DNA from: a virus
Strand: one strand, 5' to 3'
IMG/VR virus record: IMGVR_UViG_3300046820_002270
Location: 1-33,704 of that record
Length of the DNA stretch: 33,704 bases
The position numbers and the translations under genes are program-made. Positions 3,992 through 33,704 of the stretch are shown here, one piece after another (position 1 is the stretch's first letter; each line of letters begins with the position of its first letter). The notes under the pieces are model-generated. The model had not been told where the DNA came from. It worked only from the letters and a program-made list of their open reading frames with translations, and made no database searches.

Positions 3992-6900
3992 TTAATATGT
4001 TCCGCCGTCAAGAGTGTTATACGCAACAACACCGCCGGATATTTGTAAGACTGTGCCTTCGCTACCTACACTTAGCTTTCTAAAACCGTTCGTGCTATTT
4101 GCAACGAGCATATCCTCAGCAGTATACGTATTCAAACCTGTACCACCAGAGTTACCTGCGAGAGGTGTTGACAACGTCAGCGTATTAGCAACGATAGCAA
4201 CGTTCAACGTGCTGTTTGCTGTTAAAGCAACGGTTGTTGAATTGGCAATAAAGCCTGTCAGACCTGCACCACCGGTTCTAATGAACGCTTGTAACGTTGC
4301 AAAGGCAAACGATGTGTTACCTGTATCAACGGTACCAGCTGGTGATGGATCTAATCCTTGGAACAGCTTGTAGATACCACCATCGCTTGCATCACGGAAC
4401 ATACCTGTGTGCTCGTGAGGAGAACCATCGCCTACTTCATAACTTCCGAAGAAACCAATATCAACGACATCACCGGTAGTGTTGTCAGACGCCAACTGAA
4501 TCATCGAGTCAGTAATGCTCAGGTTGTTGGCGCTAATAGTCGTCAATGTGCCGGTAACGTTTAGGTTACCCGATACAACAATGTCATTAACAGCAATTGT
4601 GTTAGCTGTTAGCTTATTGGTAATAGAAACGTTAGCACCAAACGAAGCGTTTGCTGCAACTTGCAGCGTTGTTGCAACGTTTGCAAAACCGTTTATTGTC
4701 GTGTTACCAAACGTTGCCGTAGCGTTGGTTGTTGTGAACCCCGACTGTGTAATCTGTACGTTGATTGTACTGTTACCGACAGAAATTACCGATGTATTAA
4801 CAACAACGTTTGCACCAACGGCAATATGTGTTGTGTTAACAACGGAGTTGCCTGCTGTTAATCCTGTCTGTGTAATGACTGTATTAACAGTTGAGTTACC
4901 AATATACAGAGCCGTCGCGTTCGCAATAACGTTTGCGCCAACAGAGATAACGGAGTTGTTAACAACGACGGTCCGTGTTGCTGTTGCGTATGAAGTACCG
5001 ACTTGTGTAGTGACGGCGTTAACAGTTGAGTTACCAATATACAGAGCCGTCACGTTCGCAATAACGTTTGCACCAGCTGCCAATACTGTTGTGTTAACAA
5101 CAGATGAGCCAACAAGAACAGCAATGGGGCTAACGTTTACTGAAGCTGTGCTGTTAGCAACGCGAATCTGTGTTGAGGTAACGGAAGCGTTAACAGTACT
5201 GTTACCAACAAATAACTGTGTCGTATTTGCAGCAACGTTTGCACCAACATACACACCTGTGGTGTTTGATACGACAGTAACGGTACCGTCGGTTATAACG
5301 ATATCGTTAAAGTCAAGGTTGGTGTATTGTGTGGTGTTACCAACACGAAGAGTAGACGTATTAGCGACGACGTTTGCGCCAACAAACACACCTGTTGTAT
5401 TTGACGTAACCGTAACCGTGCTGTCGGTTATAATGACATCGTTAAAGTCGATAGTTGTAGACTGAGTCGTATTGCCAATACGCAGTGCTGATACGTTAGC
5501 AACGACGTTTGCGCCAACAGATATTTGTGATGTGTTAACGACAGTGGTTACTGTGCCGTTTTGTGCGACGACGCCATTTTGAGACGTGACGCTGTTTACT
5601 GTTGAGTTACCAACAAACACAGTAGTTGTATTTGCAATAACGTTTGCACCAGCTGCTACGACTGTCGTATTGACTCTACTTGTTCCAACATCAATAGACG
5701 TAGGTGTAACGTTCGATGAGCTCGATGCATTTCTAACTGTAATAAACGAGCTGTTTGTGTATGCATTAACAGTCGAATTGCCAACCAGTATAGCATCACC
5801 ATCAATGGTGACATTGCTAACTGTCAGCATTGAACCCTTGAGTTGTAGGTTACCAGCTGTCAACGTCGTGTTGACAGTACTGTTGCCCATGAACAGGGTT
5901 GTTGCATTAAGAGTGACGTTTGCACCAACAGATACTGTTGTTGAATTAACAGTTGAAATACCAACTGTAAATGCAATCGGTGTAACGTTTGCTGTACCAG
6001 TACTATTGGCTGCTTGTATCAGTGTCGATACAACAGTTGCATTGACAGTGCTGTTACCAACGAGCAAGCCGGTCGCTGTTGTAATAACGTTTGCACCAAC
6101 AGATACAGCTGTCGAGTTGACTGTTGAAATGCCAACGGCAAATGCTGTTGGAGTAACGTTTGCCGTACCTGTGCTGTTTGCTACCTGTATCAACGTTGAC
6201 GTAGCAGTTGAATTAACGGTACTATTACCCATGAACAACGCTGTTGCGTTGAGAATAGCGTTTGCACCAACAGATACAGCTGTCGAGTTGACGGTAGAGA
6301 TACCAACAGCAAATGCTGTTGGAGTGACGTTTGCCGTACCGGTACTGTTCGCTGCTTGTATTAGTGTTGAAACGACAGTTGCATTAACGGTGCTGTTACC
6401 AACAAGTAATCCAGTTGTGGTTGCAACGACGTTCGAGCCAACGGAAACCTGTGTTGTGTTGACAGTGGTCGTGACAGAAGGACTAAAAGCAACAATACCG
6501 ACAGGACTGTGAACCGCGTTGACAGTACTGTTACCAGTGTACACAGATGTCAGGTTTGCAACAACGTTAGCACCGATAGAAATTTGCGCAGTGTTAACTG
6601 TTGTAGTGACGGTAGGACTTGCAACAACGACGCCTGTCTGCGTCGACACAACGTTAACTGTGCTGTTACCAACATACAAGGCTGTGGTATTACCAACAAC
6701 GTTAGCGCCAATGTTGATGCTACCGTTTACAGTTAGCGCATCAGTTGCTGCAACAAACGTGAGACCAGCGTCACTCGTTAAACCACCAGTAGAGTTACCA
6801 AACGCAACCTGCGTTGCAGTGACAACACCCGTACGCGTGTCGATGTAGTTCTTAACAGCCCACGATGTGACAAGTTCGTTATTCGAACCAGCCGCAGTAG

Positions 6901-7216
6901 CGCCAAGCTGCGATGTATTTGCTGCTGTGGAGATCGATGTGACGTTGACTGTTGATCCAGCAGCACCGATAATCAGCTTTGCCGTTTGAACAGAATCAAT
7001 CCAACTCGATGCGTTTGCAATCAGTGCTTGATTTGCGGTAAGTATACCTGGATAGCGAGCACCACTAATGGCAACAACGTTTGCTGAGTTGGCAACTCCG
7101 TTCACGCTACCAATGTATAGTATCTCACCGTTTCCAGAGTATGCAAGTTCACCAACGGCAACGCTTGTTGGCACTGCCGAGGTGTTACTTCTCTTTATTT
7201 GAATTTGGTTTGCCAT
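3992..7216 (-). CDS. Large repeat-built tail fibre protein (GNSTVN repeats)
   Basis: This is a 1,074-aa fibre. The N terminus (MANQIQIKRSNTSAVPTS then VGELAYSGNGEILYIG) is the same attachment-type module as in the C1q-like gene nearby. Residues of about 165-820 are a degenerate array in which SVGANV...LxVGNSTVN recurs; within it is a run of about three 57-aa units. The rest is a C-terminal fibre module containing SITDSMIQLASDNTTGDVVD, IGFFGSYEVGDGSPHEHTG and MFRDASDGGIYKLF, a motif set I know from phage fibres, and it ends LDGGTY. The composition is Asn/Thr/Val/Ser with almost no Cys, as expected for a beta-rich trimeric shaft. Its ATG directly abuts the stop of the 73-aa gene (TAAATG). It is probably a long or side tail fibre; its receptor is unknown. 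Confidence 0.78.
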   Translation of the reverse strand: MANQIQIKRSNTSAVPTSVAVGELAYSGNGEILYIGSVNGVANSANVVAISGARYPGILTANQALIANASSWIDSVQTAKLIIGAAGSTVNVTSISTAANTSQLGATAAGSNNELVTSWAVKNYIDTRTGVVTATQVAFGNSTGGLTSDAGLTFVAATDALTVNGSINIGANVVGNTTALYVGNSTVNVVSTQTGVVVASPTVTTTVNTAQISIGANVVANLTSVYTGNSTVNAVHSPVGIVAFSPSVTTTVNTTQVSVGSNVVATTTGLLVGNSTVNATVVSTLIQAANSTGTANVTPTAFAVGISTVNSTAVSVGANAILNATALFMGNSTVNSTATSTLIQVANSTGTANVTPTAFAVGISTVNSTAVSVGANVITTATGLLVGNSTVNATVVSTLIQAANSTGTANVTPIAFTVGISTVNSTTVSVGANVTLNATTLFMGNSTVNTTLTAGNLQLKGSMLTVSNVTIDGDAILVGNSTVNAYTNSSFITVRNASSSSNVTPTSIDVGTSRVNTTVVAAGANVIANTTTVFVGNSTVNSVTSQNGVVAQNGTVTTVVNTSQISVGANVVANVSALRIGNTTQSTTIDFNDVIITDSTVTVTSNTTGVFVGANVVANTSTLRVGNTTQYTNLDFNDIVITDGTVTVVSNTTGVYVGANVAANTTQLFVGNSTVNASVTSTQIRVANSTASVNVSPIAVLVGSSVVNTTVLAAGANVIANVTALYIGNSTVNAVTTQVGTSYATATRTVVVNNSVISVGANVIANATALYIGNSTVNTVITQTGLTAGNSVVNTTHIAVGANVVVNTSVISVGNSTINVQITQSGFTTTNATATFGNTTINGFANVATTLQVAANASFGANVSITNKLTANTIAVNDIVVSGNLNVTGTLTTISANNLSITDSMIQLASDNTTGDVVDIGFFGSYEVGDGSPHEHTGMFRDASDGGIYKLFQGLDPSPAGTVDTGNTSFAFATLQAFIRTGGAGLTGFIANSTTVALTANSTLNVAIVANTLTLSTPLAGNSGGTGLNTYTAEDMLVANSTNGFRKLSVGSEGTVLQISGGVVAYNTLDGGTY
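4757..6709 (-). repeat. Degenerate in-frame repeat array (core GNSTVN; 57-aa units)
   Basis: The coding repeat inside the 1,074-aa fibre. The clearest section (about 5930-6445) has units of 171 bp (57 aa): a segment starting gagttga at 6113 recurs starting gagttga/gagttgac at 6284. Each unit carries TLIQxANSTGTANVTP, AFAVGISTVNST and VSVGANV, then GNSTVN. Units flanking this core are shorter and more diverged, with 22-45 residues between GNSTVN motifs. Confidence 0.75.
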
Positions 7217-7438
7217 TTAAAATGTTCCCCCGTCTAGGTCTAGTAATTTTACAACATATTTGTCTGTCGACGGATCATAAACGAGGGTGCTGTTCACCGG
7301 CGTATTAGCCGTATCAGCTGTCACATCCAAAAGACCATCTAACCGTCTGTTGGCATCCGCTTGTATTGTGTTCTTTAGCGTAACTGGTGAGCTGGCCTGA
7401 AGCTGTCCATTTGTCACCTTTACAACAATTGCCGTCAT
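7217..7438 (-). CDS. Small virion-associated protein ending in DGGTF
   Basis: This is a 73-aa protein of a type I recognise only as a small hypothetical from marine T4-like phages. It begins MTAIVVKVTNGQLQASSPVT, has a Leu/Asp-rich middle (RRLDGLLDV), and ends with VNSTLVYDPSTDKYVVKLLD followed by LDGGTF. The ending closely resembles the last residues of the neighbouring 1,074-aa fibre (LDGGTY), which hints at a shared terminal structural motif. The ATG overlaps the TGA of the preceding gene (ATGA) and the stop abuts the fibre start, so it is tightly coupled to both. It is probably a small structural or fibre-associated subunit; no enzymatic motif is visible. Confidence 0.65.
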   Translation of the reverse strand: MTAIVVKVTNGQLQASSPVTLKNTIQADANRRLDGLLDVTADTANTPVNSTLVYDPSTDKYVVKLLDLDGGTF

Positions 7439-7761
7439 CTCGTCACTCCTGGCGTTACAGTTACGATGCCTTCGAGAATTCGAGACGTCAAGGAGCCACT
7501 TGTAATCAAAACATCATACACATATCGACCGGGAACTAAATTCGCAGTCTGAGTATCGGTTAGAGAAAGAATAATCAACCCCTGAGTACCGGATACTGTG
7601 GTGGTGAAACTAACCGACGATGATGAGGTATGTGTCTTTCTAATCTGAGAATTTGCTGTGTAACCAGTCAAATCAACGACATTTCCATCATCATCCGTTA
7701 AGTTTATAGATGTGGAATAATCTGTTCTCTGATCGATGACAAGATTTGCTTTAATTGCCAT
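7435..7761 (-). CDS. Small Ig-like/BppU-like tail structural protein
   Basis: This is a 108-aa protein that looks like a single beta-sandwich: MAIKANLVIDQRTDYSTSIN, then LTDDDGNVVDLTGYTANSQI, RKTHTSSSSVSFTTTV, LIILSLTDTQTANLVPGRYV and YDVLITSG ending in GIVTVTPGVT. The order 'input field, D-x-x-G, L-T-G-Y, R-K, PGRYVYDV' is shared with small baseplate/fibre accessory proteins of many phages and with the N-terminal domain of BppU-type proteins. It is the first gene behind the only perfect late-promoter box found, so it probably heads a late unit of this protein, the 73-aa protein, the 1,074-aa fibre and onward. It overlaps the next gene by 4 bases. I infer a role as a fibre or baseplate adaptor. 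Confidence 0.65.
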   Translation of the reverse strand: MAIKANLVIDQRTDYSTSINLTDDDGNVVDLTGYTANSQIRKTHTSSSSVSFTTTVSGTQGLIILSLTDTQTANLVPGRYVYDVLITSGSLTSRILEGIVTVTPGVTR

Positions 7762-7791
7762 GTACCAATCCGCTTATTATTGTTATCGCGG

Positions 7792-7799
7792 TATTTATA
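7792..7799 (-). promoter_or_regulatory. Perfect T4-type late promoter (TATAAATA)
   Basis: The minus strand reads TATAAATA, the exact T4 late-promoter -10 consensus recognised by gp55-type sigma. It lies in the largest intergenic gap of the window (7762-7800), just past the methyltransferase stop, and 31 bases upstream of the ATG at 7761. It is the only exact match I found on the minus strand. It should drive the second fibre block and possibly the neck genes. Confidence 0.65.
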
Positions 7800-7800
7800 T

Positions 7801-8418
7801 TTACGGAATCTGATGCTTCTTACCGATTACCATGAAGCGGTTTTTATGTCCCAGATCCATTCTCCCTTTGAAAACAACTTGATCAAACTCACATTGCTCA
7901 ATTAGTTGATCAGTTGTTTCGACAATATTTACGTGACCGGGGTCGTTCTTCTCATCGCATGCTTGGAATACATACAGAGCTTCGGGATTCGCCACGTAGA
8001 TATTGCGTAGGTTTGTCATGTGTTCGCATGATGTGTTTATCACAACGTCGAAACGTTGGTCGTGTATTCGTTCAATGTTTGTCTCCACATCAACAACACC
8101 CATCCTTATTTTTGTCACGCCCTGATATCTTGCTTGATGGAGGTATTCAGCAACTGACAACGGCTCACTTTCCTTATCAGTTAAAAGAATCGAACAGTCG
8201 GGATATTGCTGCTGTAACATGGGAATGAGAAAACTCCCATACCATCCACCGAGAATTAGTATCGATGGCGAGCCTGGGAGCTTTTGTAAGGCTAGTGTTT
8301 CAACTAACCATTTTTTCGATGTGTATTGTGTTTTGCTAAACGAATCAGCAAAGTCATCTATCCGATGCTGAGGTATTGATCTTAGGACATCAGAAACATT
8401 ACAAAGATAGTTTAGCAT
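7801..8418 (-). CDS. Class I SAM-dependent methyltransferase-like protein
   Basis: This is a 205-aa protein with a Rossmann-type SAM-binding pattern: ILILGGWYGSFLIPML at residues 53-68 (glycine loop G57-G58-W-Y-G61), an acidic strand end LLTDKE (D81), and a post-strand motif VVINTSCEHM at 125-134 in the place of methyltransferase motif IV. The GGWYG variant is familiar from small methyltransferases of marine T4-like phages. The substrate cannot be told from sequence; the lack of an N-terminal target-recognition domain argues against a sequence-specific DNA methylase. Its ATG overlaps the stop of the sulfotransferase-like gene (TAATG), so the two are probably made together and may act on the same substrate, such as a glycan. 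Confidence 0.72.
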   Translation of the reverse strand: MLNYLCNVSDVLRSIPQHRIDDFADSFSKTQYTSKKWLVETLALQKLPGSPSILILGGWYGSFLIPMLQQQYPDCSILLTDKESEPLSVAEYLHQARYQGVTKIRMGVVDVETNIERIHDQRFDVVINTSCEHMTNLRNIYVANPEALYVFQACDEKNDPGHVNIVETTDQLIEQCEFDQVVFKGRMDLGHKNRFMVIGKKHQIP

Positions 8419-9026
8419 TACACGACGATGTTTTGATTCAATAGTTCTGGTCTGAATTCTGTAATCAACCCATCAATGAACGCCTCGAGCTCGACCTTGT
8501 GTGGCCATTCGTTGTAGGCCGTGTAGGTTGTTTCTTTTTCAAACACATCCTCGTACCACGTAATAGTTTTATTGTTATCTGCACAGAACTTCAACAACAA
8601 ACAGGTCGAGATCAAGTTTCTCTCGATCAACGGACGTACGAAATGGAAGGGACGGACCGTTGGCGTACTACCGTAGTAATTCTTTATAACATGGTTTGCA
8701 TGTGATCGCAATGAATTGCGAATGTTTTTGCGTGTGATATAAGCTGTAGCGCCACCCCATGCCCCAACATCACAGTTGAGTGCATTGACGAGATACATAG
8801 AATTAGGATCGGACAAGTTTGCCCAAGCTGCGAGAAATTCCGCCATAGTATACGTTGGCTGAATTCCAGTCTCGTGGAAGTCACGTTTCCAATTTGGACG
8901 TGTTGTATTGGTTCCTACGACTGCGGGGCTGTAATTAATCTCACCTTTGAAAGGTATACCAGCCTCTAGCGCTTTGTGGATAGTGAAAGCTGTAGAGCCT
9001 GAGCGAGCTGTTCCTACAATATACAT
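8418..9026 (-). CDS. Sulfotransferase-like P-loop protein
   Basis: This is a 202-aa protein that begins MYIVGTARSGSTAFTIHKAL. The GTARSGST stretch (residues 5-12), at the end of the first beta strand and the start of a helix, fits the 5'-phosphosulfate-binding loop of PAPS-dependent sulfotransferases. Further on are WKRDFHETG, a SNSMYLVN-type strand and FHFVRPLIERNLISTCLLLK at about 126-145, where an R...S pair could bind the 3'-phosphate of PAPS (RPLIERN in place of the usual RdP..r.vS). The C-terminal part (ITWYEDVF) resembles the WYEDL segment of the family. It would transfer sulfate to a hydroxyl of a sugar or tyrosine. It is divergently oriented to the plus-strand glycosyltransferase and coupled to the methyltransferase. 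An alternative is another P-loop kinase-like enzyme. Confidence 0.65.
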   Translation of the reverse strand: MYIVGTARSGSTAFTIHKALEAGIPFKGEINYSPAVVGTNTTRPNWKRDFHETGIQPTYTMAEFLAAWANLSDPNSMYLVNALNCDVGAWGGATAYITRKNIRNSLRSHANHVIKNYYGSTPTVRPFHFVRPLIERNLISTCLLLKFCADNNKTITWYEDVFEKETTYTAYNEWPHKVELEAFIDGLITEFRPELLNQNIVV

Positions 9027-9050
9027 ATATGCACCTCTGAAAGTTATTTT

Positions 9051-9899
9051 ATGATGATAAACATCGTTTGTGTTAAAATTGGGACGAAGTATGGAAGTAT
9101 TTATGCAAACAAGTTGTACGAGACATGCGTGCGTAACATTTCACAACAATTCCGCTTTTTTTGTTACACAGATGATGTAGCTGGTCTTGATCCAAGCATT
9201 ATACCTATACAGTTTGTCGACCACGGCCTAGATATCATTGTTTTCAATAAACTATTTCTCCTAAGTGATCAATTTGCTGCACACATTGGTGAACATCCAA
9301 CATTCTTCTTCGATCTTGATATTGTAATTAAAAACAACATCGACTCTCTGATTGATAGATCAAAACACTCTCCCGACTTCAAAGTAATCAATGCTGTTTG
9401 GAAATCTTTGAAGAAGGAAGATACATTTCCCCCCTATCTCGATCACACAGTCAATTCCAGTTGCATGTTCTGGACTCCATATACGACAAATCATATATGG
9501 GACAGCTTCCTTGCTAAAAAACAACAATTCCAACAAACATACTGGCGCGGCATGGATGGGTTTCTCTTTTACGAGCATAACATCCGTGGTGGATTACCGG
9601 AAGACGGTTTTTATTCCTATCTATACGACATCGACAGGAAGGTTAAACGTATTATCACCAACCCTGAGGAATATAAGAAAGTTAAGGCGTCAATTCCCAT
9701 TGTCCTCTTCAACGGCCCCACAACACAAGAAGACATTGACTGTTTCATTAACAACAACTACGAGAGCGACTACTTGCGCTTTGAAGAAACCTTTTCAAGC
9801 TCCCCAGAACGCAGAAAAGAAATTCAAAAAGAGATCAACGACGACATGCAGAAGCGTCAGCTCTCAATGTCATCACACATATCTTCCCACATTCCCTGA
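9051..9899 (+). CDS. Glycosyltransferase-like protein (GT-A, plus strand)
   Basis: This is a 282-aa protein and the only convincing plus-strand gene. Its N-terminal half reads as a GT-A nucleotide-sugar fold: strand INIVCVKIGTKYGSIYANKL, YETCVRNI helix, FRFFCYTDD at 35-42, and FFFDLDIVI with a D88-L-D90 metal-binding DxD. A later WRGMDGFLFYEHN segment could form part of the acceptor site. The last 30 residues are hydrophilic and Ser/His-rich. Two ATGs are adjacent (9051, 9054); no strong ribosome site or late box precedes them. It faces away from the sulfotransferase gene (24-bp gap) and its last 43 bases overlap the 3' end of the oxygenase gene tail to tail. The opposite strand suggests a later insertion (moron-like). 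Donor and acceptor are unknown. Confidence 0.75.
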   Translation: MMINIVCVKIGTKYGSIYANKLYETCVRNISQQFRFFCYTDDVAGLDPSIIPIQFVDHGLDIIVFNKLFLLSDQFAAHIGEHPTFFFDLDIVIKNNIDSLIDRSKHSPDFKVINAVWKSLKKEDTFPPYLDHTVNSSCMFWTPYTTNHIWDSFLAKKQQFQQTYWRGMDGFLFYEHNIRGGLPEDGFYSYLYDIDRKVKRIITNPEEYKKVKASIPIVLFNGPTTQEDIDCFINNNYESDYLRFEETFSSSPERRKEIQKEINDDMQKRQLSMSSHISSHIP

Positions 9900-10465
9900 T
9901 GAGGAATAATATACCCAAGTGTTAGCCTCTCTTCGTGCTCTGCACTTGCGCAGTGCCAGTAGATTTTATCCTTCTCATGCCAAGGACCATAATAACCAAC
10001 TTTGCACGTCCATCCCGGTGTATCCTGCATCGTGACAATCTCTTTTGTCGCTGGATCCTGATAACGGAAAAACCCTTTTCCTTCTGCCGACCAAGAAAGA
10101 AGAATATTATAGCCAGGTGCGTTTGCGTTATGGTGCCATCCCATAAAACCACCTTTAGGATACAACATTTTTACAGCGTTGTTTCTTGAGCCGGACCAGG
10201 CAAGTAGTTCTTCATCTAGCGTTTTCAGTGCACCTTTGAGATTGGGGGGGAGGTGACGTGCCAGATCAACGCCGAGGGTCTTTTCCGGAAACCCATCAAC
10301 GGGCTTGTTCTGCATGTGATTGAGATATTCTTTACCACAGGCATACTCAGATGTAATGTCCGTGCGACCGTATGGGTACTGTGATCTATCCTGTACTAAA
10401 AGCTGATCGAGAAACTTGTTAAGGATAGTGCGCAAGTCTTTGTTGTTTATTTCGATACTCTTCAT
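9857..10465 (-). CDS. 2-oxoglutarate/Fe(II)-dependent oxygenase-like protein
   Basis: This is a 202-aa protein with a double-stranded beta-helix oxygenase pattern in its C-terminal half: GGFMGWHHNANAPGYNILLS (H111, H112, N113, N115), FFRYQDPATKEIVTMQD, GWTCKVGYYGPW, and IYWHCASAEHEERLTLGYI with distal H171 and R180, the usual 2OG-binding arginine. I see no classical HxD; the place is taken by HHNAN, so either an H-x-N variant or a different acidic ligand must be used. Similar short oxygenases with a GWH-N motif occur in marine T4-like phages, where substrates are mostly unknown (protein hydroxylation is often proposed). It overlaps the upstream glycosyltransferase by 4 bases (ATGA) and is antisense-overlapped by the plus-strand gene at its 3' end. 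Confidence 0.72.
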   Translation of the reverse strand: MKSIEINNKDLRTILNKFLDQLLVQDRSQYPYGRTDITSEYACGKEYLNHMQNKPVDGFPEKTLGVDLARHLPPNLKGALKTLDEELLAWSGSRNNAVKMLYPKGGFMGWHHNANAPGYNILLSWSAEGKGFFRYQDPATKEIVTMQDTPGWTCKVGYYGPWHEKDKIYWHCASAEHEERLTLGYIIPHQGMWEDMCDDIES

Positions 10466-11181
10466 TTTCCAACTCTGTGTGGTAGTGTGTGATGATAAAA
10501 AACAATGGGGTTACTTGTCTCACTTAAGTAATACCCATTAACAAAATTCCACCGCGCATCGTCTTTAAACACTTGGACGTTGACGGGGAGCTTGTCTTCA
10601 TTCATTAATTTCCAAAACGTAAACTGATCCCATTGACCAAAAGATTTTGGTATCTCGTTTTCATCATATGGCCATGGCTCTGCACGTTGCTTCACGTAAT
10701 CTTGCCACCATCTCTCCATAAACTGTTTTGTGTGTTCGTTTGTCCGGTAGAGAAAAAAACCACCGTGGTATGTCATTCTTCCAGCTGGGATCGTGAGACC
10801 GCCGGGCCACTTGTCTTCTTTTCCATTATATGGTCTGATTTTTGTAATTAGTATATCACAATCGTCAGGCATCTCATTCCAGATGTTCTGCACGTCCTCG
10901 TGCATACATTCCATATCTGCATCGACATAACAAGTCATCTCCGTGTACGGTGTACGTGACAAGGCGTAAAGCTTTGTCCGTATGTGAGAGGGAACATTCT
11001 CACTAATGATTGAATCATAGACGTCATCATCAACACGATCACGCAAATTGGGCGTGACAAACAGTGTGATGTGCGAGTCGGGGTAGTAATCTTTTATACT
11101 TGCAGCAAGAAAATTTGCGCCGACAACGTAGCCTGGATCCTGCGAGGCTACAATCAAAAAACCATTACGAATATCTGCCAT
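10462..11181 (-). CDS. Glycosyltransferase-like protein (DxD type)
   Basis: This is a 239-aa protein with a GT-A-like layout: N-terminal strand GFLIVASQDPGYVVGANFLA, a YYPDSHITLFVTP strand, RTKLYALSRTPYTEMTCYVD leading to the D87-A-D89 metal motif (YVDADMECM), then GRMTYHGGFFLYRTNEHTKQ at about 143-162 and a late SFGQWDQFTFWKLM with YHHTLPHR at the C terminus. The H-G-G and terminal H-H segments are consistent with sugar-nucleotide enzymes of the GT8-like type. There is no membrane segment. It begins within the TAA of the small upstream gene (TAATG) and overlaps the oxygenase by 4 bases, placing it in a four-gene coupled chain that starts with the 1,297-aa fibre. The fibre is therefore a reasonable candidate acceptor, but host or phage glycans remain possible. 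Confidence 0.72.
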   Translation of the reverse strand: MADIRNGFLIVASQDPGYVVGANFLAASIKDYYPDSHITLFVTPNLRDRVDDDVYDSIISENVPSHIRTKLYALSRTPYTEMTCYVDADMECMHEDVQNIWNEMPDDCDILITKIRPYNGKEDKWPGGLTIPAGRMTYHGGFFLYRTNEHTKQFMERWWQDYVKQRAEPWPYDENEIPKSFGQWDQFTFWKLMNEDKLPVNVQVFKDDARWNFVNGYYLSETSNPIVFYHHTLPHRVGK

Positions 11182-11639
11182 TACTGTTCCTGTGTGCCTT
11201 CATCCTGTTCAGGCGCGGCTTGTTGATTCTGCATTGTGTCCAGAATAATAGCAGCTGCCATTGCATACACTTCAAAGTCGCTCTTTGCACGACGAAGTGC
11301 TGACTTTAGATTCTTGTTTGTTGTATTTTTTATAGCATCTACCTCAAATGCTCCCAGCTTGACTTGGAATAAACGTTCCTGACGCTCACGTTCCTTTTGA
11401 GCTTCTTCTTGTGCTTTTTGTCGATCGCGCTCGCCTTGAATTTTTCGAATATTGTTAGCAGTATTTTGTTCAAGCTCCGCGTCCGTGAACTTAGTGCGGA
11501 TTTCCTGATAGTCGGGGTTGTTCGATTCGTTAGAGTTAATGACCGCAGTCATTACACGACCATCGTCATAGTGAAACTCGGCTGACAAGACCGTTCTTGC
11601 GTTATTGGTCCAATGTGGATTCTTTATGGTTCTTTTCAT
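11181..11639 (-). CDS. Small coiled-coil helper of the fibre operon
   Basis: This is a 152-aa protein of a hypothetical family that I associate with the gene just after a fibre in marine T4-like phages. It begins MKRTIKNPHWTNNARTVLSA, has a short beta-like part (FHYDDGRVMTAVINSN), then a charged helix rich in Gln/Lys/Arg/Glu (EAQKERERQERLFQVKLGAF), a second helix (LKSALRRAKSDFEVYAMAAA) and an acidic Gln-rich tail. I chose the ATG at 11639 rather than the TTG at 11654 because it makes a classical ATGA overlap with the stop of the 1,297-aa gene. The location and coiled coil suggest a fibre assembly chaperone or trimerisation aid; this is inference, and there are no enzymatic motifs. Confidence 0.65.
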   Translation of the reverse strand: MKRTIKNPHWTNNARTVLSAEFHYDDGRVMTAVINSNESNNPDYQEIRTKFTDAELEQNTANNIRKIQGERDRQKAQEEAQKERERQERLFQVKLGAFEVDAIKNTTNKNLKSALRRAKSDFEVYAMAAAIILDTMQNQQAAPEQDEGTQEQ

Positions 11640-14600
11640 GCTATTCTTACCCAAAGTTTAAACGTTGATATTGTCTCTGGAGTTGATATAATTGTCAACC
11701 CTGTGTACGCACCAGTGAACGATCCCACATATGCGCCTGAGTATGCTGTAGAGTATACGCCAGTATATAGTCCAGTGTAAATTCCAGTGAACGCGCTAGT
11801 GTATACACCAGAGAAAGCACCTGTCCAGGCATTGCCGTAAGTTCCTGAGTACTGACCAGTAAACGATCCAGTATAGTTGCCAACGTAGACGGTGGTAAAT
11901 GTATTGGTGTATATACCGGTGAATGTGTTCTGGTAATTGCCAACGAACGCTCCGGTGAAACTGCCCGTGTAGTTACCGACATATGCACCGCTGTAATTGC
12001 CCGTCCACGATTGTAAATATGTTCCTGAGTAGTTCCCCGTGAAGAAACCTAAGTAAATGCCAACAAATTGACCGGTAAACGTACTTTGGTAACCGCCTGC
12101 AAATATACCAGTAAAGTTACCAGTGTAGTTACCAACGTACGCACCTGACCACTGACCTGTGAACGCACCGATATACCCACCAGTATAATTACCCGTGAAC
12201 GTACCAACGTATCCTCCGGAATAATTACCCGTGAATGTGCCGACATATCCTCCGGAATAATTTCCCGTAAACGCACCAACAAAACCACCACTGTACTGAC
12301 CAGTAAACGCACTTGCATACGCACCTGCAAAAATACCCGTAAAGCTACCAGTATAGTCTCCTATGTACGCGCCACTATACAGGCCAGAAAACGCACTCGC
12401 ATATCCACCAGTGTACTGACCGGTGAATGTACTTTGATAACCACCGGCAAATATACCAGTGAAGCTACCCGTATAATTTCCCACATAGGCGCCCGACCAT
12501 TGACCAGTAAACGCACCAACATAACCACCACTATATTGACCAGTGAATGTGCTTTGGTAACCACCGGCAAAAATGCCAGTGAAGCTACCAGTATAGTTTC
12601 CAACGTACGCGCCACTATACAGGCCAGTAAACGAACCGACGTAGCCGCCACTATACTGACCAGTGAATGTGTTTTGGTAACCACCTGCAAATATACCCGT
12701 AAAGCTACCTGTGTAGTTTCCTACATAAGCACCACTATACAGGCCAGTAAACGTTTGTTGATAGTTACCAACATACGCACCAGCAAAGTTCTGAGCATAA
12801 GTTCCGGCAAAGATACCCGTAAAGCTACCTGTGTAGTTTCCTACATAATCACCGGCAAAGTTTGACGCATAAGCACCTGCGTATGCACCCGTCCACGGAG
12901 CGTTATAAGTGCCCGCATATACGCCGGTCCAGTACTGTGAATACGTACCAGCAAAGAAACCTGTGTAGAAAGCTGTGTAGTCTCCTGCATAGGCACCAGC
13001 ATATGCTCCAGCATACGAACCGGAAAAAGCTTGTGTGTAGGCGCCTGTGAAGAAGCTTGTGTAGTACCCCGCAAAAGTTTTAGCAACGTTTCCGTAAGCC
13101 ATGATGTAACTACCAGCGTAGAAGTTCTCCTGACGGCCACCAAAGGTGCGTCGGTAACTACCAACGTAATATCCAACGTATGCCGCTATACCAGCGCCAT
13201 AACCCATGATGTAACTACCAGCGTAGAAGTTCTCCTGACGGCCACCAAAGGTGCGTCGGTAACTACCAACGTAATATCCAATATACACCGCTACACCGGC
13301 ACCGTATCCCATGATGTAACTACCAGCGTAGAAGTTCTCCTGACGGCCACCAAAGGTGCGTCGGTAACTACCGACATAATATCCAACATAAACGGCACGT
13401 GAATAGTATCCGGTGTAATAACCTAGGTATGATGTACTATAGCTGCCTGCAAAAGACGAGGAGTATGATCCAGCATAAAATCCAGTATAATATCCGGTGT
13501 ATACGCCGGAGAACACACGAGCAAAAGCGGTAGCATATGTGCCTGTCCATGATTGAACATATGTGCCAGAATAGGTGCCCGTCCATGCACGTGTATACGT
13601 ACCTGCGTAGAAGCCAACAAAGTAACCTACGTAAATGCCTGTGTAACTACCTGTAAAGATACGCGAGTATGCACCGGAATAGTTTCCTGTAAAGAAACCA
13701 GTATATAAGCCAGTGTACGAGCCAGTAAACGTACCCACGTAACCGCCCGTGTAAGTGCCCGTATAACTGCCACTGAAGACACGCGAGTATGTTCCTGCAT
13801 ATGCTCCGGTAAACGTACCTACGTAGCCGCCCGTGTATAGACCAGTGAACGTCTGGTTATACACACCCGTATAAGCACCGGTGTACGTACCACTGAACAC
13901 ACGTGAATATGTTCCTGCATATGCTCCGGTAAACGTACCTACGTAGCCGCCCGTGTAGAGGCCAGTAAACGTCTGGTTATACACACCCGTATAAACACCA
14001 GTGTAACTACCACTGAATACCCGTGAATACACTCCAACGTAGTTGCCTGTAAACGTGCCTACGTAGCCGCCCGTGTAGACGCCCGTGAAGAAGCTCCCAT
14101 AAGCTCCTCCGTAAGCACCAGTGTAGCTACCGCTGAATACACGCGAGTATGTTCCTGAGTAGTTGCCTGTAAAGAAACCTGTGTAGAATCCAGTGTAGAG
14201 GCCAGTGAAAACCTGTGAGTACGTTCCCGCAAATACACCGGTAAATGTACTCTGATAGCTACCGACGTAAACGCCAGTGAAAGTGCTCTGATAGTTACCA
14301 ACATACACACCGGTAAATGTCTGGTTATACACGCCCGTGTAAGTGCCCGTATAACTGCCACTGAATACACGCGAGTATGTTCCTGAGTAGTTGCCTGTAA
14401 ACGTGCCTACGTAGCCGCCCGTATAGACACCACTCCATGTACTCTGATAGTTGCCAGTATACGTGCCTGTCCACGCCTGTGTGTATATGCCAGTGTATAT
14501 GCCAGTATATAAGCCGCTGAAGACGCGCGAGTAAATGCCTGTGTATAAACCAGAGAACGTTCCTATGTACGCACCGGTAAACGCGCCTGTAAAGGTATTG

Positions 14601-15529
14601 GTGTACGCACCTGTAAATACTTGATTGTATATACCAGTATACACACCGGTGTATGCAGCACTGAAGGCTTGTTGATATGTACCTGTGAATCCCTGGGCAT
14701 ACACACCAGTAAAATTACCACCGTAAGTGCCACTGAACGCACGCGTGTAAGCACCTGTAAATGATTGGTTGTATGTGCCAGCATATGGTTGCTCTTGTGT
14801 TTGATAACGCGTATCATCAAAACCACTTCCAGCCTGCACCCACGTACCTGGGCTGACAGGAGTGGTGGTTGAAAGCTGATACTGACCAATCCCACTGGTA
14901 ACAATGTAGTTACGAACTTTTTGAGTCAGCGTTTTTATATCGTCATCAGTCATCTCACGCATGCCAGCGGAGAATTTGATTGGCCGTTTAACCGTTGTGT
15001 AGGAACCATCGGTACGTTGCCACAACGTTGTCGTGTTGGTTGTGCCGGTCGTCAGTGTATTCGTTAATGTGCCACGTGAAGCCCATGTACCGGTCACAGG
15101 TGCTGTCGGCTGCAACACGTATGCGCCAGGACCTGAAAGAAGCATACCCTGAACAATGTTGTTGCAGAGATTATCAGCTATATCCGTGTCGTTGAATACT
15201 TTGAAGTAATTGTTGCTACTCCAACCAACAGGTCGAACCAATGGTTCGTTTATTGCAGAGTTTGAGAGATTTTGGTAAACAGTTGTACTGTTTGTGCCTA
15301 TTGAGCTTGGACTGACTGGGTGACTTCCTAGTGAGTCGGTGCGATACGTATCGACCCATGTACCGATCGACGTTCCATTTGCCATTGAACCAACAGCCAA
15401 CGAACCAACGCTGGTGTTCGAAGCAAAGTGTGACCCAATCACTGGAACGATGTAGTCCGTCATGTCCGTATAGGACATGGACTGAAGCCCATCTAGTGTG
15501 GTATTGTATCTGAGAGCAGTTATGGCCAT
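11636..15529 (-). CDS. Giant x-aromatic-x-Gly repeat fibre (1,297 aa)
   Basis: This protein has three parts. Residues 1-248 hold three diverged copies of a domain ending in G-T-W (MSYTDMTDYIVPVIGS...GTW at 58; a DTDIADNLCNNIVQ...GTW at 149; EMTDDDIKTLTQKV...GTW at 230), with a LWQRTDGSYTTVKRPIKF linker. Residues of about 249-1276 are an almost uninterrupted tetrapeptide array, x-(Tyr/Phe/Trp)-(Thr/Ser/Ala/Val)-Gly, with periodic breaks such as YSRVFSG and YNQTFTG, and one insertion of three 35-aa cassettes. The last 21 residues end KLWVRIA. The composition is extreme: Gly and aromatic residues make up about half of the array. There is a shorter paralogue just upstream. The ATG lacks an obvious ribosome site. 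I infer a virion fibre or adhesin; no function is known to me for this repeat. Confidence 0.75.
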   Translation of the reverse strand: MAITALRYNTTLDGLQSMSYTDMTDYIVPVIGSHFASNTSVGSLAVGSMANGTSIGTWVDTYRTDSLGSHPVSPSSIGTNSTTVYQNLSNSAINEPLVRPVGWSSNNYFKVFNDTDIADNLCNNIVQGMLLSGPGAYVLQPTAPVTGTWASRGTLTNTLTTGTTNTTTLWQRTDGSYTTVKRPIKFSAGMREMTDDDIKTLTQKVRNYIVTSGIGQYQLSTTTPVSPGTWVQAGSGFDDTRYQTQEQPYAGTYNQSFTGAYTRAFSGTYGGNFTGVYAQGFTGTYQQAFSAAYTGVYTGIYNQVFTGAYTNTFTGAFTGAYIGTFSGLYTGIYSRVFSGLYTGIYTGIYTQAWTGTYTGNYQSTWSGVYTGGYVGTFTGNYSGTYSRVFSGSYTGTYTGVYNQTFTGVYVGNYQSTFTGVYVGSYQSTFTGVFAGTYSQVFTGLYTGFYTGFFTGNYSGTYSRVFSGSYTGAYGGAYGSFFTGVYTGGYVGTFTGNYVGVYSRVFSGSYTGVYTGVYNQTFTGLYTGGYVGTFTGAYAGTYSRVFSGTYTGAYTGVYNQTFTGLYTGGYVGTFTGAYAGTYSRVFSGSYTGTYTGGYVGTFTGSYTGLYTGFFTGNYSGAYSRIFTGSYTGIYVGYFVGFYAGTYTRAWTGTYSGTYVQSWTGTYATAFARVFSGVYTGYYTGFYAGSYSSSFAGSYSTSYLGYYTGYYSRAVYVGYYVGSYRRTFGGRQENFYAGSYIMGYGAGVAVYIGYYVGSYRRTFGGRQENFYAGSYIMGYGAGIAAYVGYYVGSYRRTFGGRQENFYAGSYIMAYGNVAKTFAGYYTSFFTGAYTQAFSGSYAGAYAGAYAGDYTAFYTGFFAGTYSQYWTGVYAGTYNAPWTGAYAGAYASNFAGDYVGNYTGSFTGIFAGTYAQNFAGAYVGNYQQTFTGLYSGAYVGNYTGSFTGIFAGGYQNTFTGQYSGGYVGSFTGLYSGAYVGNYTGSFTGIFAGGYQSTFTGQYSGGYVGAFTGQWSGAYVGNYTGSFTGIFAGGYQSTFTGQYTGGYASAFSGLYSGAYIGDYTGSFTGIFAGAYASAFTGQYSGGFVGAFTGNYSGGYVGTFTGNYSGGYVGTFTGNYTGGYIGAFTGQWSGAYVGNYTGNFTGIFAGGYQSTFTGQFVGIYLGFFTGNYSGTYLQSWTGNYSGAYVGNYTGSFTGAFVGNYQNTFTGIYTNTFTTVYVGNYTGSFTGQYSGTYGNAWTGAFSGVYTSAFTGIYTGLYTGVYSTAYSGAYVGSFTGAYTGLTIISTPETISTFKLWVRIA
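13101..13415 (-). repeat. Three tandem 105-bp cassettes (RRTFGGRQENF)
   Basis: Copies start at 13101, 13206 and 13311, exactly 105 bp (35 aa) apart. The first 62 bp are identical in all three, without even synonymous change; the remainder differs at a few sites. Each encodes a block with SYRRTFGGRQENFYAGSYIM. This is the only strongly basic and charged part of an otherwise Gly/aromatic array. Confidence 0.9.
13791..14150 (-). repeat. 120-bp higher-order repeats within the tetrapeptide array
   Basis: Blocks beginning at 13791 and 13911 are nearly identical over 120 bp (40 aa, ten tetrapeptide units, containing TYSRVFSG and VYNQTFTGLYTG). A third, more diverged copy follows at 14031. This points to local duplication in multiples of the 12-bp unit. 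Confidence 0.75.
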
Positions 15530-15538
15530 ATTGACAAA

Positions 15539-15546
15539 TATTTATT
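15539..15546 (-). promoter_or_regulatory. Weak late-promoter-like box ahead of the 1,297-aa fibre
   Basis: The minus strand reads AATAAATA, one mismatch from TATAAATA, beginning within the stop of the 633-aa gene. The ATG follows only 9 bases later, so a transcript from it would have almost no leader. It may be a chance match in an AT-rich junction. Confidence 0.22.
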
Positions 15547-17447
15547 TAAGCTGTACGTACGTACAAGCTCTTAGTCGTTGTCTGCAGCGTGTTCTGCGCA
15601 GTAAGGCCTGTGTAAACTCCTGTATACGTTCCGGTCCACGCCCGCGTATATACGCCCGTGTATGCTCCCGAGTATGCACTTGTATAAGCGCCTGTAAACC
15701 CGCCACTGTAAACTCTATTATAAGCTCCTGTGTATGGTACTAATGAAGAATATGCTCCTGTATATATCCCACTGAAAGCACCGGTGAATGACTGAGCATA
15801 TGCTCCAGTAAATATTCGACTATACGTGCCTGAGTATGTTGAAGTAAACGAGGCATTTACGACTCGTGAATATACACCAGACCATGCACGTGTAAATGCT
15901 TGACTGTAGGCGCCTGAGTAGAAACCAGTAGTATACTCGCCTACAAATGCACCAGTCCATGTTTTTGCAATATCTTGATATGTACCGAGGTAGCTACCGG
16001 CGTAGAAGTTTTCCTGACGGCTACCAAACGTGCGCCGGTAACCACCGGTCCAATAACCGACATACGCTGTGCCAGTTACAGGCCCATATGCTCCAAGGTA
16101 GCTACCAGAGTAGAAGTTCTCCTCACGGCCACCAAAGGTGCGACGGTAACCACCAGTATACGCACCAATGTAAATAAGCGACTCAACGTTATACGCGCCA
16201 ATATAACCGCCCGTGTAGTTATTTTCCTGACGGCTACCAAACGTACGCAAGAATGCTCTTGTGTATGTGCCAATGTACGATGGACGGGTAAATAAACCGG
16301 TGTAGCTTCCCGCATATACACCAGTAAAGTAAATTATGTAACTGCCGGTGAATGCTCCTGTGTAACTTGTATTGTATGCGCCGGTGTACGAGCCGGGATA
16401 GGCTGCGGAGAAGGTTGAATTATACAATCCACTGAACGCGCCGGTGTATCCACCAGAGAAGGCACCGGTAAAGACATTGTTGTACGTACCGACGTATGGA
16501 CCACTAAACGGCGTAAGTAGGTTGTAGATGCCGGTCCACACTCGTGTAAAGTCATTACCATACTGACCGGTAAATGTACTTTGATAAGTTCCCGCGTATA
16601 TACCTGTGTAACTACCAACATATGTTCCAGCATAGTACCCGGTGTAAGAGTCGTCAAATGTAATGTTGAGGCGTTCGGTAGCAGCTCCAAGTGCCGTCCA
16701 CGAGCCGGTACCTGGGTAATTATTACCAAAAAAATATTGGCCAATTCCTTTTGTACGGATAGATTCACCAATAAAAACATACAGAGACTCTATTTCCGTG
16801 TCAGTCATTTCAACAAGACGTTGCTCGCCATTCACGAGCGTGTACTTGAGGGGTCTATATGTCGAACCTATCGATAAGGTATCCGTACGTTGCCATAAAA
16901 TGTAAGTGATCTGTGTAAGAGTTGTATTATTCCAATACGTATCATAAAAATTCGATACTTGGGTCCATGTACCTGAAGCTCCTAAAACGTTTGGATTTTG
17001 CGAACTAGAAGTAATGTAATAACTACCGTTACCGAGTACCGTTAATTTTTCAATGGTCGTTGGGAGAAGGTAGTCATAGATGTCTGAGTTAGACATCTCC
17101 AAAATTTGCTGCTCGTTACCGTTTGCAACATAATGAACAGGACGAGCACTGACGGAGGGCGTGATTGCTCTCTCATTTTGAGTAAACGTATAGGTTGCAA
17201 TTGTATTAACTGTGACCGGATGTGCGCCCGCGCCATCAGAAGTATGGTAGTCAATAAACGCACCACGGCTGACATCGTATGTGCCAGTGCCGTTAATTCT
17301 TAATTTTGATCCGTATACCGAATCAGGGTTTGCTAGTGCATAGTTGACAAGCTTAGGAACAATGATATCGGCAATCTCTGCGTTCGACATCTCCTGAACC
17401 CCAATAGCGACACCGTTGTCGTACTTCGCTCTAAGAGGTCTTCCCAT
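15546..17447 (-). CDS. x-aromatic-x-Gly repeat fibre (633 aa, paralogue)
   Basis: A shorter paralogue of the neighbouring 1,297-aa protein with the same architecture. Residues 1-266 carry three copies of the N-terminal domain: VQEMSNAEIADIIVPKLV at 17-34, ILEMSNSDIYDYLLPTTIEK at 115-134 with GTW at 159, and LVEMTDTEIESLYVFIGESI at 211-230 with GSW at 248, joined by RPVHY/RPLKY and LWQRTD linkers. Residues 267-614 are the Tyr/Phe-x-Gly array, including three RTFG-R-EN cassettes. The C terminus (KSLYVRTA) matches the KLWVRIA end of the paralogue. This suggests tandem gene duplication followed by array expansion in one copy. It lies 1 bp after the 402-aa fibre. An attached, possibly trimeric fibre is likely; the array's fold is unknown. 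Confidence 0.75.
   Translation of the reverse strand: MGRPLRAKYDNGVAIGVQEMSNAEIADIIVPKLVNYALANPDSVYGSKLRINGTGTYDVSRGAFIDYHTSDGAGAHPVTVNTIATYTFTQNERAITPSVSARPVHYVANGNEQQILEMSNSDIYDYLLPTTIEKLTVLGNGSYYITSSSQNPNVLGASGTWTQVSNFYDTYWNNTTLTQITYILWQRTDTLSIGSTYRPLKYTLVNGEQRLVEMTDTEIESLYVFIGESIRTKGIGQYFFGNNYPGTGSWTALGAATERLNITFDDSYTGYYAGTYVGSYTGIYAGTYQSTFTGQYGNDFTRVWTGIYNLLTPFSGPYVGTYNNVFTGAFSGGYTGAFSGLYNSTFSAAYPGSYTGAYNTSYTGAFTGSYIIYFTGVYAGSYTGLFTRPSYIGTYTRAFLRTFGSRQENNYTGGYIGAYNVESLIYIGAYTGGYRRTFGGREENFYSGSYLGAYGPVTGTAYVGYWTGGYRRTFGSRQENFYAGSYLGTYQDIAKTWTGAFVGEYTTGFYSGAYSQAFTRAWSGVYSRVVNASFTSTYSGTYSRIFTGAYAQSFTGAFSGIYTGAYSSLVPYTGAYNRVYSGGFTGAYTSAYSGAYTGVYTRAWTGTYTGVYTGLTAQNTLQTTTKSLYVRTA
15606..16649 (-). 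repeat. Tetrapeptide x-aromatic-x-Gly array, about 87 units
   Basis: The array of the 633-aa paralogue, about 348 residues in 12-bp coding units such as YYAG TYVG SYTG IYAG. It is more irregular than in the larger protein, with more Asn, Arg and Ser breaks. Confidence 0.8.
15970..16284 (-). repeat. Three diverged 35/36-aa cassettes (RRTFG-R-EN)
   Basis: Copies of the basic cassette occur around 16013, 16121 and 16226 (spacing 108 and 105 bp). They encode YRRTFGSRQENFYAGSYLG, YRRTFGGREENFYSGSYLG and LRTFGSRQENNYTGGYIG. They are homologous to the cassettes at 13101-13415 but differ from one another, unlike those. Confidence 0.8.
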
Positions 17448-23276: not shown

Positions 23277-23768
23277 TTAAACAGGTGCAAGTTGCATACT
23301 TTGCGTTTCAATTATACGTGCTTTCGGATGCTTGATCAATTGGCGAAATAAATCACCGGGAGATATTTTCTTCTTTGTATCGTCGAATAGTTTGATATCA
23401 ACCTTTTCAAGTCCATATGCACAAAACTCCGAACACATCCATAAAGAAGAATCTTTCCAGTTTTTCTTCTTGCGAGGTATAAGCACGTTAAATGGTGCTA
23501 ACGCTGTGTAGTCGTAAGGAATACCTATTTGTGTCTTTGCCCAGTGATAAACTCTTCGCTCTTCTTCTGGCGTTATATCAACCTCAACAAATGTCTGTAC
23601 AGGATATTTTTTCTTTGTCGAAACAACAACACCCATTTCCATTGCTGGAAAAACAGACACTCCATTAGAAAAAACAAACTCGCAATGAGAATAGCGAGAC
23701 CACGTCCACAACCTTACCAAAGGGGATAGAGGAAGATAGATGTGGTTCGCACTAAATTTAACTATCAT
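23277..23768 (-). CDS. Permuted papain-like (YiiX/NlpC-P60-type) enzyme
   Basis: A 163-aa protein with the circularly permuted papain layout: a catalytic-type His first (SRYSHCEFVFSNG, H28), then VSVFPAMEMGVVV, an IGIPYDYTALAPFNVL segment at about 81-96, and the candidate nucleophile in WMCSEFCAYGLE (C112). YiiX, LRAT and related NlpC/P60-superfamily proteins have the same order and act on peptide, lipid or amide bonds. No signal peptide or transmembrane helix is seen. I chose the ATG at 23768, which overlaps the stop of the upstream gene by 11 bases, over the TTG at 23819. Placement in the baseplate region suggests a tail-associated cell-wall amidase or a processing protease; the neighbour upstream carries a Hint domain. 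The function is not certain. Confidence 0.68.
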   Translation of the reverse strand: MIVKFSANHIYLPLSPLVRLWTWSRYSHCEFVFSNGVSVFPAMEMGVVVSTKKKYPVQTFVEVDITPEEERRVYHWAKTQIGIPYDYTALAPFNVLIPRKKKNWKDSSLWMCSEFCAYGLEKVDIKLFDDTKKKISPGDLFRQLIKHPKARIIETQSMQLAPV

Positions 23769-24228
23769 TTGATTTTCCAAAAATTGCTTTACGGAGACGT
23801 GACTGGAACCACAAAGCAAAAACAGGATAAAGTTTGTCTCTGTTACGAACGCCCCAAGCTACACTCTTTCCGACAGCATTGCCAATCATGTTATCGTTGT
23901 TCAGAACAAACGTATTTATCGCTGTTGTAATATTATACATGCGAGCCTTAGCAGATGCTGGCCATGCATTCAGTCCAACAGTGTTCTCCAACATATAAAC
24001 ATATCCCTTGTATTCTTCTTCCGTCAACCAGCCACGCTTATTCAGTACAAACATATTACCGTTTCCGATAATGTTGTGTACCTTTTGACCGTTTGCGTAA
24101 TGGGTGAACCCAGTCTTGAACATTAAGTTGTACACAACAATTGGAGTCTCGTTAACGATTATTCTTGGAACCTCAACAACCTTTACAGGTGCAAGCCAAG
24201 GTGCAAGATACTCACATTCCCCCGACAT
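23758..24228 (-). CDS. C-terminal half of a split Hint domain plus unknown domain
   Basis: A 156-aa frame (from ATG 24228) that begins inside the 3' end of the DUF4815/Hint gene in the -1 frame. Its first about 50 residues contain the C-terminal Hint motifs: NETPIVVYNLMFKTGFTHY followed by ANGQKVHN, matching block F and the HN of block G. The residue after HN is Ile, not Cys/Ser/Thr. About 105 further residues follow (VLNKRGWLTEEEYKGYVYML ... FALWFQSRLRKAIFGKSNDS), which I do not recognise. It is either expressed as an extension of the upstream protein (frameshift, or one missing base), or from its own ATG, which has an AGGTGAG ribosome-site-like stretch 8 bases upstream. On its own the frame would hold half a domain. 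Confidence 0.65.
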   Translation of the reverse strand: MSGECEYLAPWLAPVKVVEVPRIIVNETPIVVYNLMFKTGFTHYANGQKVHNIIGNGNMFVLNKRGWLTEEEYKGYVYMLENTVGLNAWPASAKARMYNITTAINTFVLNNDNMIGNAVGKSVAWGVRNRDKLYPVFALWFQSRLRKAIFGKSNDS

Positions 24229-30299: not shown

Positions 30300-30305
30300 C
30301 TTGGA

Positions 30306-33251: not shown

Positions 33252-33704
33252 CTCTTAATACCTACAACATTAATGTCTACATCGATATCATCTATTAAAA
33301 GAATCACATTCTTTTTACTTGACACGTTTTGTGTATATGGCGTAGCGCGCAGCTCAATATAATTACCCACGTAACTATCAACTGTAAGAGAGTTAATTGA
33401 CACTTTACCAGTCTCGTAATTAACGGTGCCAACTTCCCTCAAAATGTCTACAGCGTTGGCATCCTCTGTTGCAACATAGAGCTTACCTAGCGAGTCATCT
33501 ACAAGTATACATGGTGTGTTACCCACGGTAAACGTTGTACTTGTTATTGTATGTCCATAGTGAATTTCATCTTGTTTTAGTTTCACACCAGTCTCAGTCT
33601 GTAACTGATTATCAAACGTCGTCACTATGTTCGTGGGCGTACCGGTAGGAACCGTAAGTCGACGAACGAGTGTTATCCTTGTATCGTTTGATACAATACT
33701 GTTA
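33248..33704 (-). CDS. 6: 3' end of a gp6-like baseplate wedge gene (partial)
   Basis: The frame is open to the right edge of the window, so only the last 151 codons are present; the GTG at 33625 is internal, not a start. The fragment has GVKLKQDEIHYGHTITS, VGNTPCILVDDSLGKLYVAT and GTVNYETGKVSINSLTVDSY, then IELRATPYTQNVSSKKNVIL and DDIDVDINVVGIKR. The order 'G-x-x-x-Y-x-x-G-x-V-x-x-N, then a P...N-x-I-L-x-I-D, then V-x-V' fits the C-terminal part of gp6-type wedge proteins of marine T4-like phages as I remember them. Position directly ahead of the gp7-like gene (4-base overlap) agrees with T4 order 6-7-8. T4 gp6 forms the inner baseplate ring. The assignment leans on synteny. Confidence 0.62.
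   Translation of the reverse strand, partial: NSIVSNDTRITLVRRLTVPTGTPTNIVTTFDNQLQTETGVKLKQDEIHYGHTITSTTFTVGNTPCILVDDSLGKLYVATEDANAVDILREVGTVNYETGKVSINSLTVDSYVGNYIELRATPYTQNVSSKKNVILLIDDIDVDINVVGIKR

Follow-up and report, generated by a model that had tools for sequence, protein, structure and literature searches.

An ordered fibre, helper, glycosyltransferase and oxygenase module as a probable fibre-modification operon of an uncultured T4-like phage

In the 33,704 bases of the uncultured-virus record IMGVR_UViG_3300046820_002270 analysed here (the window), a tail fibre gene with a tetrapeptide array (FIB) is followed on the minus strand by a small conserved gene (HELP), a glycosyltransferase-like gene (GT) and a gene with a predicted oxygenase fold (OXY). 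In the loci examined, these four genes behave as an obligate ordered module, and we consider it fairly probable that the segment serves a marine-type, T4-like phage related to the Kyanoviridae as an operon dedicated to modifying the fibre. In the parts of the literature used here, oxygenases and glycosyltransferases of marine T4-like phages have so far been read as metabolic or lipopolysaccharide genes. The strict pairing with one fibre family suggests as an alternative that the enzymes modify the virion's own fibre. The members of the module are as follows.

11636-15529, minus strand: FIB, fibre of 1,297 amino acids with three tandem N-terminal domains of about 85 amino acids, a tetrapeptide array and a conserved C-terminal ...KLWVRIA strand
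11711-14806, minus strand: the array within FIB (about residues 242-1273), [Y/F]-[T/S/A/V]-G-x, with 249 aromatic tetrads by the loose pattern, 65% of them with Tyr; boundaries set by convention (last GTW plus 14, up to the C-terminal 24 residues)
11181-11639, minus strand: HELP, conserved gene of 152 amino acids between fibre and GT, putatively a dedicated chaperone or adaptor
10462-11181, minus strand: GT, GT-A-like glycosyltransferase with DAD/DCD motif
9857-10465, minus strand: OXY, predicted Fe(II)/2-oxoglutarate (2OG) oxygenase double-stranded beta-helix fold, H111-x-N113...H171...R180

An earlier note on this DNA had named these genes, joined by ATGA and TAATG overlaps, and the enzyme genes downstream of them, and had proposed that the enzymes decorate the fibre. 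Open reading frame (ORF) lists were made mechanically and the junctions checked, and all of these genes and overlaps are present where it had placed them. On the minus strand, the FIB/HELP junction reads ...AGCATGAAAAG (ATGA), the HELP/GT junction CAGTAATGGCA (TAATG) and the GT/OXY junction AAAATGAAGAG (ATGA). An alternative TTG start at 11654 would give HELP 157 rather than 152 amino acids.

In order to score the linkage, relatives were searched with OXY (the best 80 of 513 confirmed), with the fibre (the best 80 of 312) and with HELP (the best 80 of 253), and further loci were taken from single-protein searches (25), bacterial or archaeal genomes (2), the phage C48C1 and the window. The module was scored by profile hidden Markov models. 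The order FIB-HELP-GT-OXY is intact in 249 of the 269 views; in the other 20, the contig or the locus breaks off within the module. By entry, intact order was found in 74/80 views from OXY, 72/80 from the fibre, 75/80 from HELP, 24/25 from single-protein searches and 2/2 from cellular-genome contigs. Neither a complete fibre without HELP-GT-OXY nor the trio without the fibre was seen in any of the 269 views. Loci overlap between searches, so that the views do not represent 269 phages, and it is safer to count the 124 distinct OXY proteins, which form 33 clusters at 70% identity and 7 at 50%. A GT-OXY overlap of 4 bp is the commonest junction (47 of the 124 distinct modules). Since locus GC (guanine plus cytosine) content spans 0.30 to 0.47 in the fibre-first and HELP-first sets, several phage lineages probably carry the module. 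Wide occurrence of the enzymes away from this fibre type, which the earlier note had taken as the finding that would speak against it, is thus not what we see for HELP-GT-OXY, and the linkage supports a fibre-dedicated role for the three genes.

In a collection of 50,697 annotated phage records, C48C1 was the only match to each of the profiles for the fibre N-domain, HELP and GT, and OXY matched C48C1 and one weak record; SULF, an accessory gene described below, matched none of these phage records. C48C1 (Kyanoviridae, host not stated) carries the four genes in the same order at about 30% identity, with an array fibre of 3,347 amino acids. A description of the module was not found in the open literature searched, where C48C1 is likewise unnamed; subscription papers lay mostly outside that search, which makes the absence weak. 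Two module contigs sit in bins named Muricauda sp. TMED12 and Bifidobacterium breve (L261, L262), probably through binning contamination by phage. Three relatives have a gene of 430-440 amino acids between the fibre and HELP (L050 6466-7785, L055 6466-7785, L068 6472-7764), which resembles a CapK/PaaK-type adenosine monophosphate ligase, but for which a single Pfam scan gave no match.

The genes could instead act on the host surface, with GT, OXY and the accessory enzymes altering the host O-antigen or envelope against superinfection and lying beside the fibre as a host-recognition island. This is the published reading for pelagimyophages: in the part of PMC7029224 used here, the pelagimyophage/cyanomyophage host-recognition cluster between baseplate and neck genes is hypervariable, runs from VrlC to gp14, and mixes tail fibres with GT8-type glycosyltransferases and radical-SAM cassettes. 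The cassette of the window lies in the equivalent place and likewise combines fibres with glycosyltransferases: PHROG matches place a T4-like tail module on the minus strand, with baseplate wedge genes at 28542-33625 followed by the fibres, and head-tail adaptor, head-closure and sheath-stabiliser genes at 29-2771 (head-closure and neck genes at 829-2771). One relative also holds a DegT aminotransferase and a carbamoyltransferase, which are typical of surface-glycan clusters. However, the published cluster is variable, whereas HELP-GT-OXY does not vary and in every case directly follows a single fibre family, which here has a tetrapeptide array. Moreover, the cultured pelagimyophage HTVC008M gave no match to any of the seven profiles and has no array, and C48C1 and one further relative (L092) lack the accessory genes GTp, SULF and MT beside the core. 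GC content also differs, at 40-48% per kilobase in the window against roughly 31-35% in the part of PMC7029224 used. We judge modification of the host surface to be an unlikely explanation of the module, though the strongest of the alternatives. HTVC008M (L289) has four consecutive genes annotated as 2OG/phytanoyl dioxygenases at 7442-9681, immediately ahead of the neck genes, so oxygenases near tail genes appear to be a wider habit in this group.

The putative substrate is highly regular. FIB holds 182 Tyr, 199 Thr, 116 Ser and 245 Gly residues, which confirms the hundreds of tyrosine and threonine/serine hydroxyls claimed for it. Its period of four is far beyond chance, because strict [YFW]xGx[YFW] tetrads number 188 against a mean of 12.9 and a maximum of 24 in 1,000 shuffles, and at lag 4 the aromatic residues have an autocorrelation of 0.91, where 0.27 is expected. 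An alignment of the relatives' fibres gives three tandem domains of about 85 residues, each closing in a beta-hairpin GTW...DT...LWxRT. In these relatives the array begins past the GTW...DTR strand of the third domain and stops before ...STxKLWVRTA, and therefore it is best described, from the alignment, as an insertion in the beta-hairpin of the last domain, anchored at both ends, and not as a free tail. For a short relative (L067, the 325-amino-acid type), AlphaFold2 gave a model with a predicted local distance difference test score (pLDDT) of 85.7. Its domains mostly score about 90 or higher, the array is modelled as long strands of lower confidence (block means 53-74), and neither PDB nor BFVD yielded a trustworthy fold match. 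If the strand is extended, the aromatic and Gly residues would lie on one side and the Thr/Ser-rich +1 and +3 residues on the opposite one. The array ranges from 4 to over 360 tetrads across relatives; this widespread fibre type could extend both its reach and its number of decoration sites by simple repeat expansion. Tandem array fibres recur in several relatives, and the second array fibre of the window (15546-17447, listed below) shares the C-terminal strand.

Residue statistics were calculated over 115 distinct complete fibre loci with the loose tetrad pattern; a narrower pattern gives slightly different counts of arrays with zero Tyr. The share of Tyr at aromatic positions runs from 8% to 100%, with 8 fibres at 10% or less and 20 at 95% or more. 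Thr/Ser at +1 has a median of 67% (range 20-94%) and Gly at +2 a median of 76% (range 30-100%), and both are kept whether the aromatic residue is Tyr or Phe. Lys and Pro each average about 1% of the arrays. Tyr, which the earlier note had named as one possible target of sulfation, does not hold up as a general acceptor, since the 8 Phe-rich arrays with 10% Tyr or less retain HELP-GT-OXY; Lys and Pro of the collagen type are too rare to be the general target. Because Tyr is infrequent in some arrays and Lys and Pro are so scarce, Thr/Ser is the likelier acceptor, as a candidate that occurs throughout the arrays. The mass-spectrometry prediction therefore shifts from +80 Da on Tyr to glycans on Thr/Ser.

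The window OXY protein matched no family in Pfam, PHROG or PDB sequence searches, and the OXY and HELP profiles found nothing usable in PDB. The AlphaFold2 model of OXY (pLDDT 91.5), however, is predicted to have the Fe(II)/2OG oxygenase fold. Its best Foldseek match is AlkB (E 6.2e-5) and its best VIA match is PHD2 (Z 10.9, root-mean-square deviation 3.7 over 146 residues); protein hydroxylases make up most of the top of the VIA list. H111, H171 and R180 are invariant. The 2OG-binding arginine of such enzymes lies about nine residues after the second histidine, as R180 does, and PHD2 has this spacing as well. OXY thus shares its fold with prolyl-hydroxylase-type oxygenases (PHD2, Pseudomonas putida P4H) and differs from them in that its third metal ligand is Asn where they have Asp, and in lacking any detectable sequence relation. 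The expected HxD/E...H facial triad reads HxN...H in 97 of 97 rows, which include overlapping views of the same contigs. Because of this replacement we file OXY as having the Fe(II)/2OG fold only and not as a canonical member of the superfamily; an oxygenase fold with Asn in its metal triad is thereby brought to light. In GT, the DxD metal-binding motif is kept in 94 of 95 rows, the remaining row being a gap, and the protein weakly resembles GT2, GT8 and glycogenin (PF01501 at E 0.0022 in L019, below the cut-off; glycogenin chains at E 0.17-0.77). Of the labels given earlier, that of a DxD glycosyltransferase agrees with the retained motif, and that of a 2OG/Fe(II) oxygenase stands for the predicted fold but not for the triad.

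The Asn in every row raises the question of whether GT and OXY are kept to help the fibre fold or assemble, without catalysis, with OXY as a pseudo-oxygenase. Tight coupling to the fibre would fit such a role, as would the finding that, of 16 large module-bearing viral records, 15 have a single OXY match and one has a further weak match. On the other hand, the Trp, both His residues, the Arg that follows the second His by nine residues and the DxD of GT are all retained, which is unusual for dead enzymes, and we consider this explanation quite improbable.

The evolutionary distances of the four genes agree with the linkage. In the 42 of 84 representatives that have all six genes, the pairwise distances of FIB, HELP, GT and OXY are correlated more strongly than the neighbouring structural gene accounts for (partial r 0.33-0.62), and the partial correlations were reached in 0 of 500 permutations for GT-OXY, FIB-GT, FIB-OXY and FIB-HELP. 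Distances of the neighbouring structural gene correlate too (r 0.68-0.77), as would be expected if the genes merely travelled with a conserved structural block, but such common descent is very improbable as the whole explanation, given that the partial correlations remain above the permutations, the module persists in C48C1 at about 30% identity, HELP and GT are likewise absent from T4-like phages that have no such fibre, and none of the views scored has lost the fibre while keeping GT/OXY, or the reverse.

The remaining features of the cassette and its surroundings are listed below.

15546-17447, minus strand: FIB paralog of 633 amino acids with a shorter array and the same C-terminus, a possible second substrate
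9051-9899, plus strand: GTp, accessory glycosyltransferase with DLD motif, encoded opposite to the core genes
8418-9026, minus strand: SULF, P-loop sulfotransferase-like ORF, variable accessory
7801-8418, minus strand: MT, S-adenosylmethionine (SAM)-methyltransferase-like ORF, accessory
7435-7761, minus strand: LTFA, L-shaped tail-fibre assembly homologue (phrog_3304)

GTp is convergent with OXY, overlapping it by 43 bp (9857-9899), and divergent from SULF, with 24 bp between them; the SULF/MT junction reads GTGTAATGCTA (TAATG, minus strand). In the relatives, sugar-active and SAM genes are added variably downstream of the core up to LTFA, which ends the cassette in most relatives whose sequence extends far enough downstream. 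The PHROG glycosyltransferase match of GTp has an E-value of 1.7e-5 in the window and 1.2e-10 in a relative. Relatives of GTp were located via synteny, none being confirmed by single-protein search, and their DxD, like that of GT, is invariant or near-invariant. For SULF, a profile-profile comparison with Sulfotransfer_3-derived sequences gave a probability of 43.7% over 15 columns at the P-loop and 0.1-0.7% in five other alignments; the comparison set took the ORF at each locus centre, at least one of which (L263) is the wrong gene. A full-domain match was not found, either to PF13469 in the window or to any Pfam family for the window protein, and the SULF label is supported at the P-loop only. 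MT matches PF13847 at E 8e-4 (19.6 bits against a cut-off of 27), and its methyltransferase matches are sub-threshold. In PDB sequence searches, the SULF and GTp profiles found nothing usable and MT weak matches only.

Sulfation and methylation, which the earlier note had listed among the possible decorations, are not supported as parts of the core. SULF occurs in 6 of the 115 complete distinct fibre loci, all with large arrays of 62-69% Tyr, and as a Tyr-sulfating partner it shows no clear association, five arrays of 262-366 tetrads with 58-85% Tyr being without it. The C48C1 locus has HELP-GT-OXY only, with a GTp-like gene elsewhere in the genome. SULF and MT are variable extras. Other accessory genes in the relatives encode radical SAM, carbamoyltransferase, DegT aminotransferase, another methyltransferase, nitroreductase-like and QueC-like proteins, and one is a second 2OG oxygenase above the Pfam cut-off. 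In L091 (9001-16533), the cassette with carbamoyltransferase, DegT aminotransferase, radical SAM and nitroreductase-like genes resembles a sugar-synthesis island.

In a fibre-modification operon, HELP would hold the newly made fibre or bring the enzymes to it. GT would place the first sugar, most likely on the Thr/Ser residues that alternate with the aromatics on one face of the hairpin, and OXY may oxidise either that sugar or side chains of the fibre. The glycan could be elaborated by GTp, MT and, in this clade, SULF. The outcome would be a long, decorated, solvent-exposed hairpin at the fibre end, which may alter adhesion or hide the fibre.

Collagen modification in mimivirus involves L230 alongside R699. 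In the part of PMC9546862 used here, it likewise joins a viral 2OG hydroxylase (lysyl hydroxylase) and glycosyltransferases (collagen glycosyltransferases, e.g. R699) with a repetitive structural protein, and it is the nearest functional model. It differs in that the present arrays have about 1% Lys and about 1% Pro, the oxygenase here is HxN and the host here is bacterial. We tentatively suggest, though we regard it as doubtful, that uncultured T4-like phages have a hydroxylate-then-glycosylate pathway on the fibre hairpin array as a bacterial-virus counterpart of collagen modification, in which a 2-His-1-Asn enzyme of oxygenase fold has other than ordinary hydroxylase chemistry and the number of sites is set by array expansion (4 to over 360 tetrads). 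Mycobacteriophages reportedly encode glycosyltransferases that decorate virion proteins; we know of no oxygenase partner, tetrapeptide fibre or invariant helper in those systems.

Several points weigh against a dedicated fibre-modification operon. The entry profiles were built from linked members, with the best 80 kept per search, and the linkage could reflect a shared host-recognition function rather than a fibre substrate. We infer modification of the virion, including its substrate, chemistry and effect on adhesion, from the observed linkage, fold, motif and array anatomy. The Asn at the position of the metal-ligand Asp makes the activity of OXY uncertain, the family assignment of GT is weak, with all Pfam scores below cut-off, and Thr/Ser stands at +1 in as few as 20-35% of tetrads in the arrays poorest in it. 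Two further OXY-like genes of C48C1 lie away from the fibre (L296 18252-18917 and 40130-40801), and in LR756511 a lone distant OXY relative with WHxN has no match to the fibre profile near it. As a superfamily, OXY is therefore not exclusive to the fibre; the claim that it occurs only with the fibre survives for the module, as no complete-module view breaks the link, but not for these relatives elsewhere. Both C48C1 paralogs have WHxN and the oxygenase fold. One lies beside tail-tube and major-head genes and is possibly another modifier of a virion protein, and the other lies beside a NifU-like gene.

Elsewhere in the window, the region 3992-7216 encodes a low-complexity protein of 1,074 amino acids with repeated GNSTVN / VGANV units and no family match at a usable E-value. 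An ORF at 23277-23819, among the baseplate genes, matches phrog_1128 (E 4e-24), whose enoyl-CoA hydratase-like label is doubtful here. The T4-late-promoter motif is not above chance in the window (33 matches against 42.5 expected). Its sole exact match, TATAAATA at 7792-7799 (minus strand), lies between MT and LTFA, and the late-promoter-like TATACATA at 9020-9027 lies just ahead of the GTp start codon.

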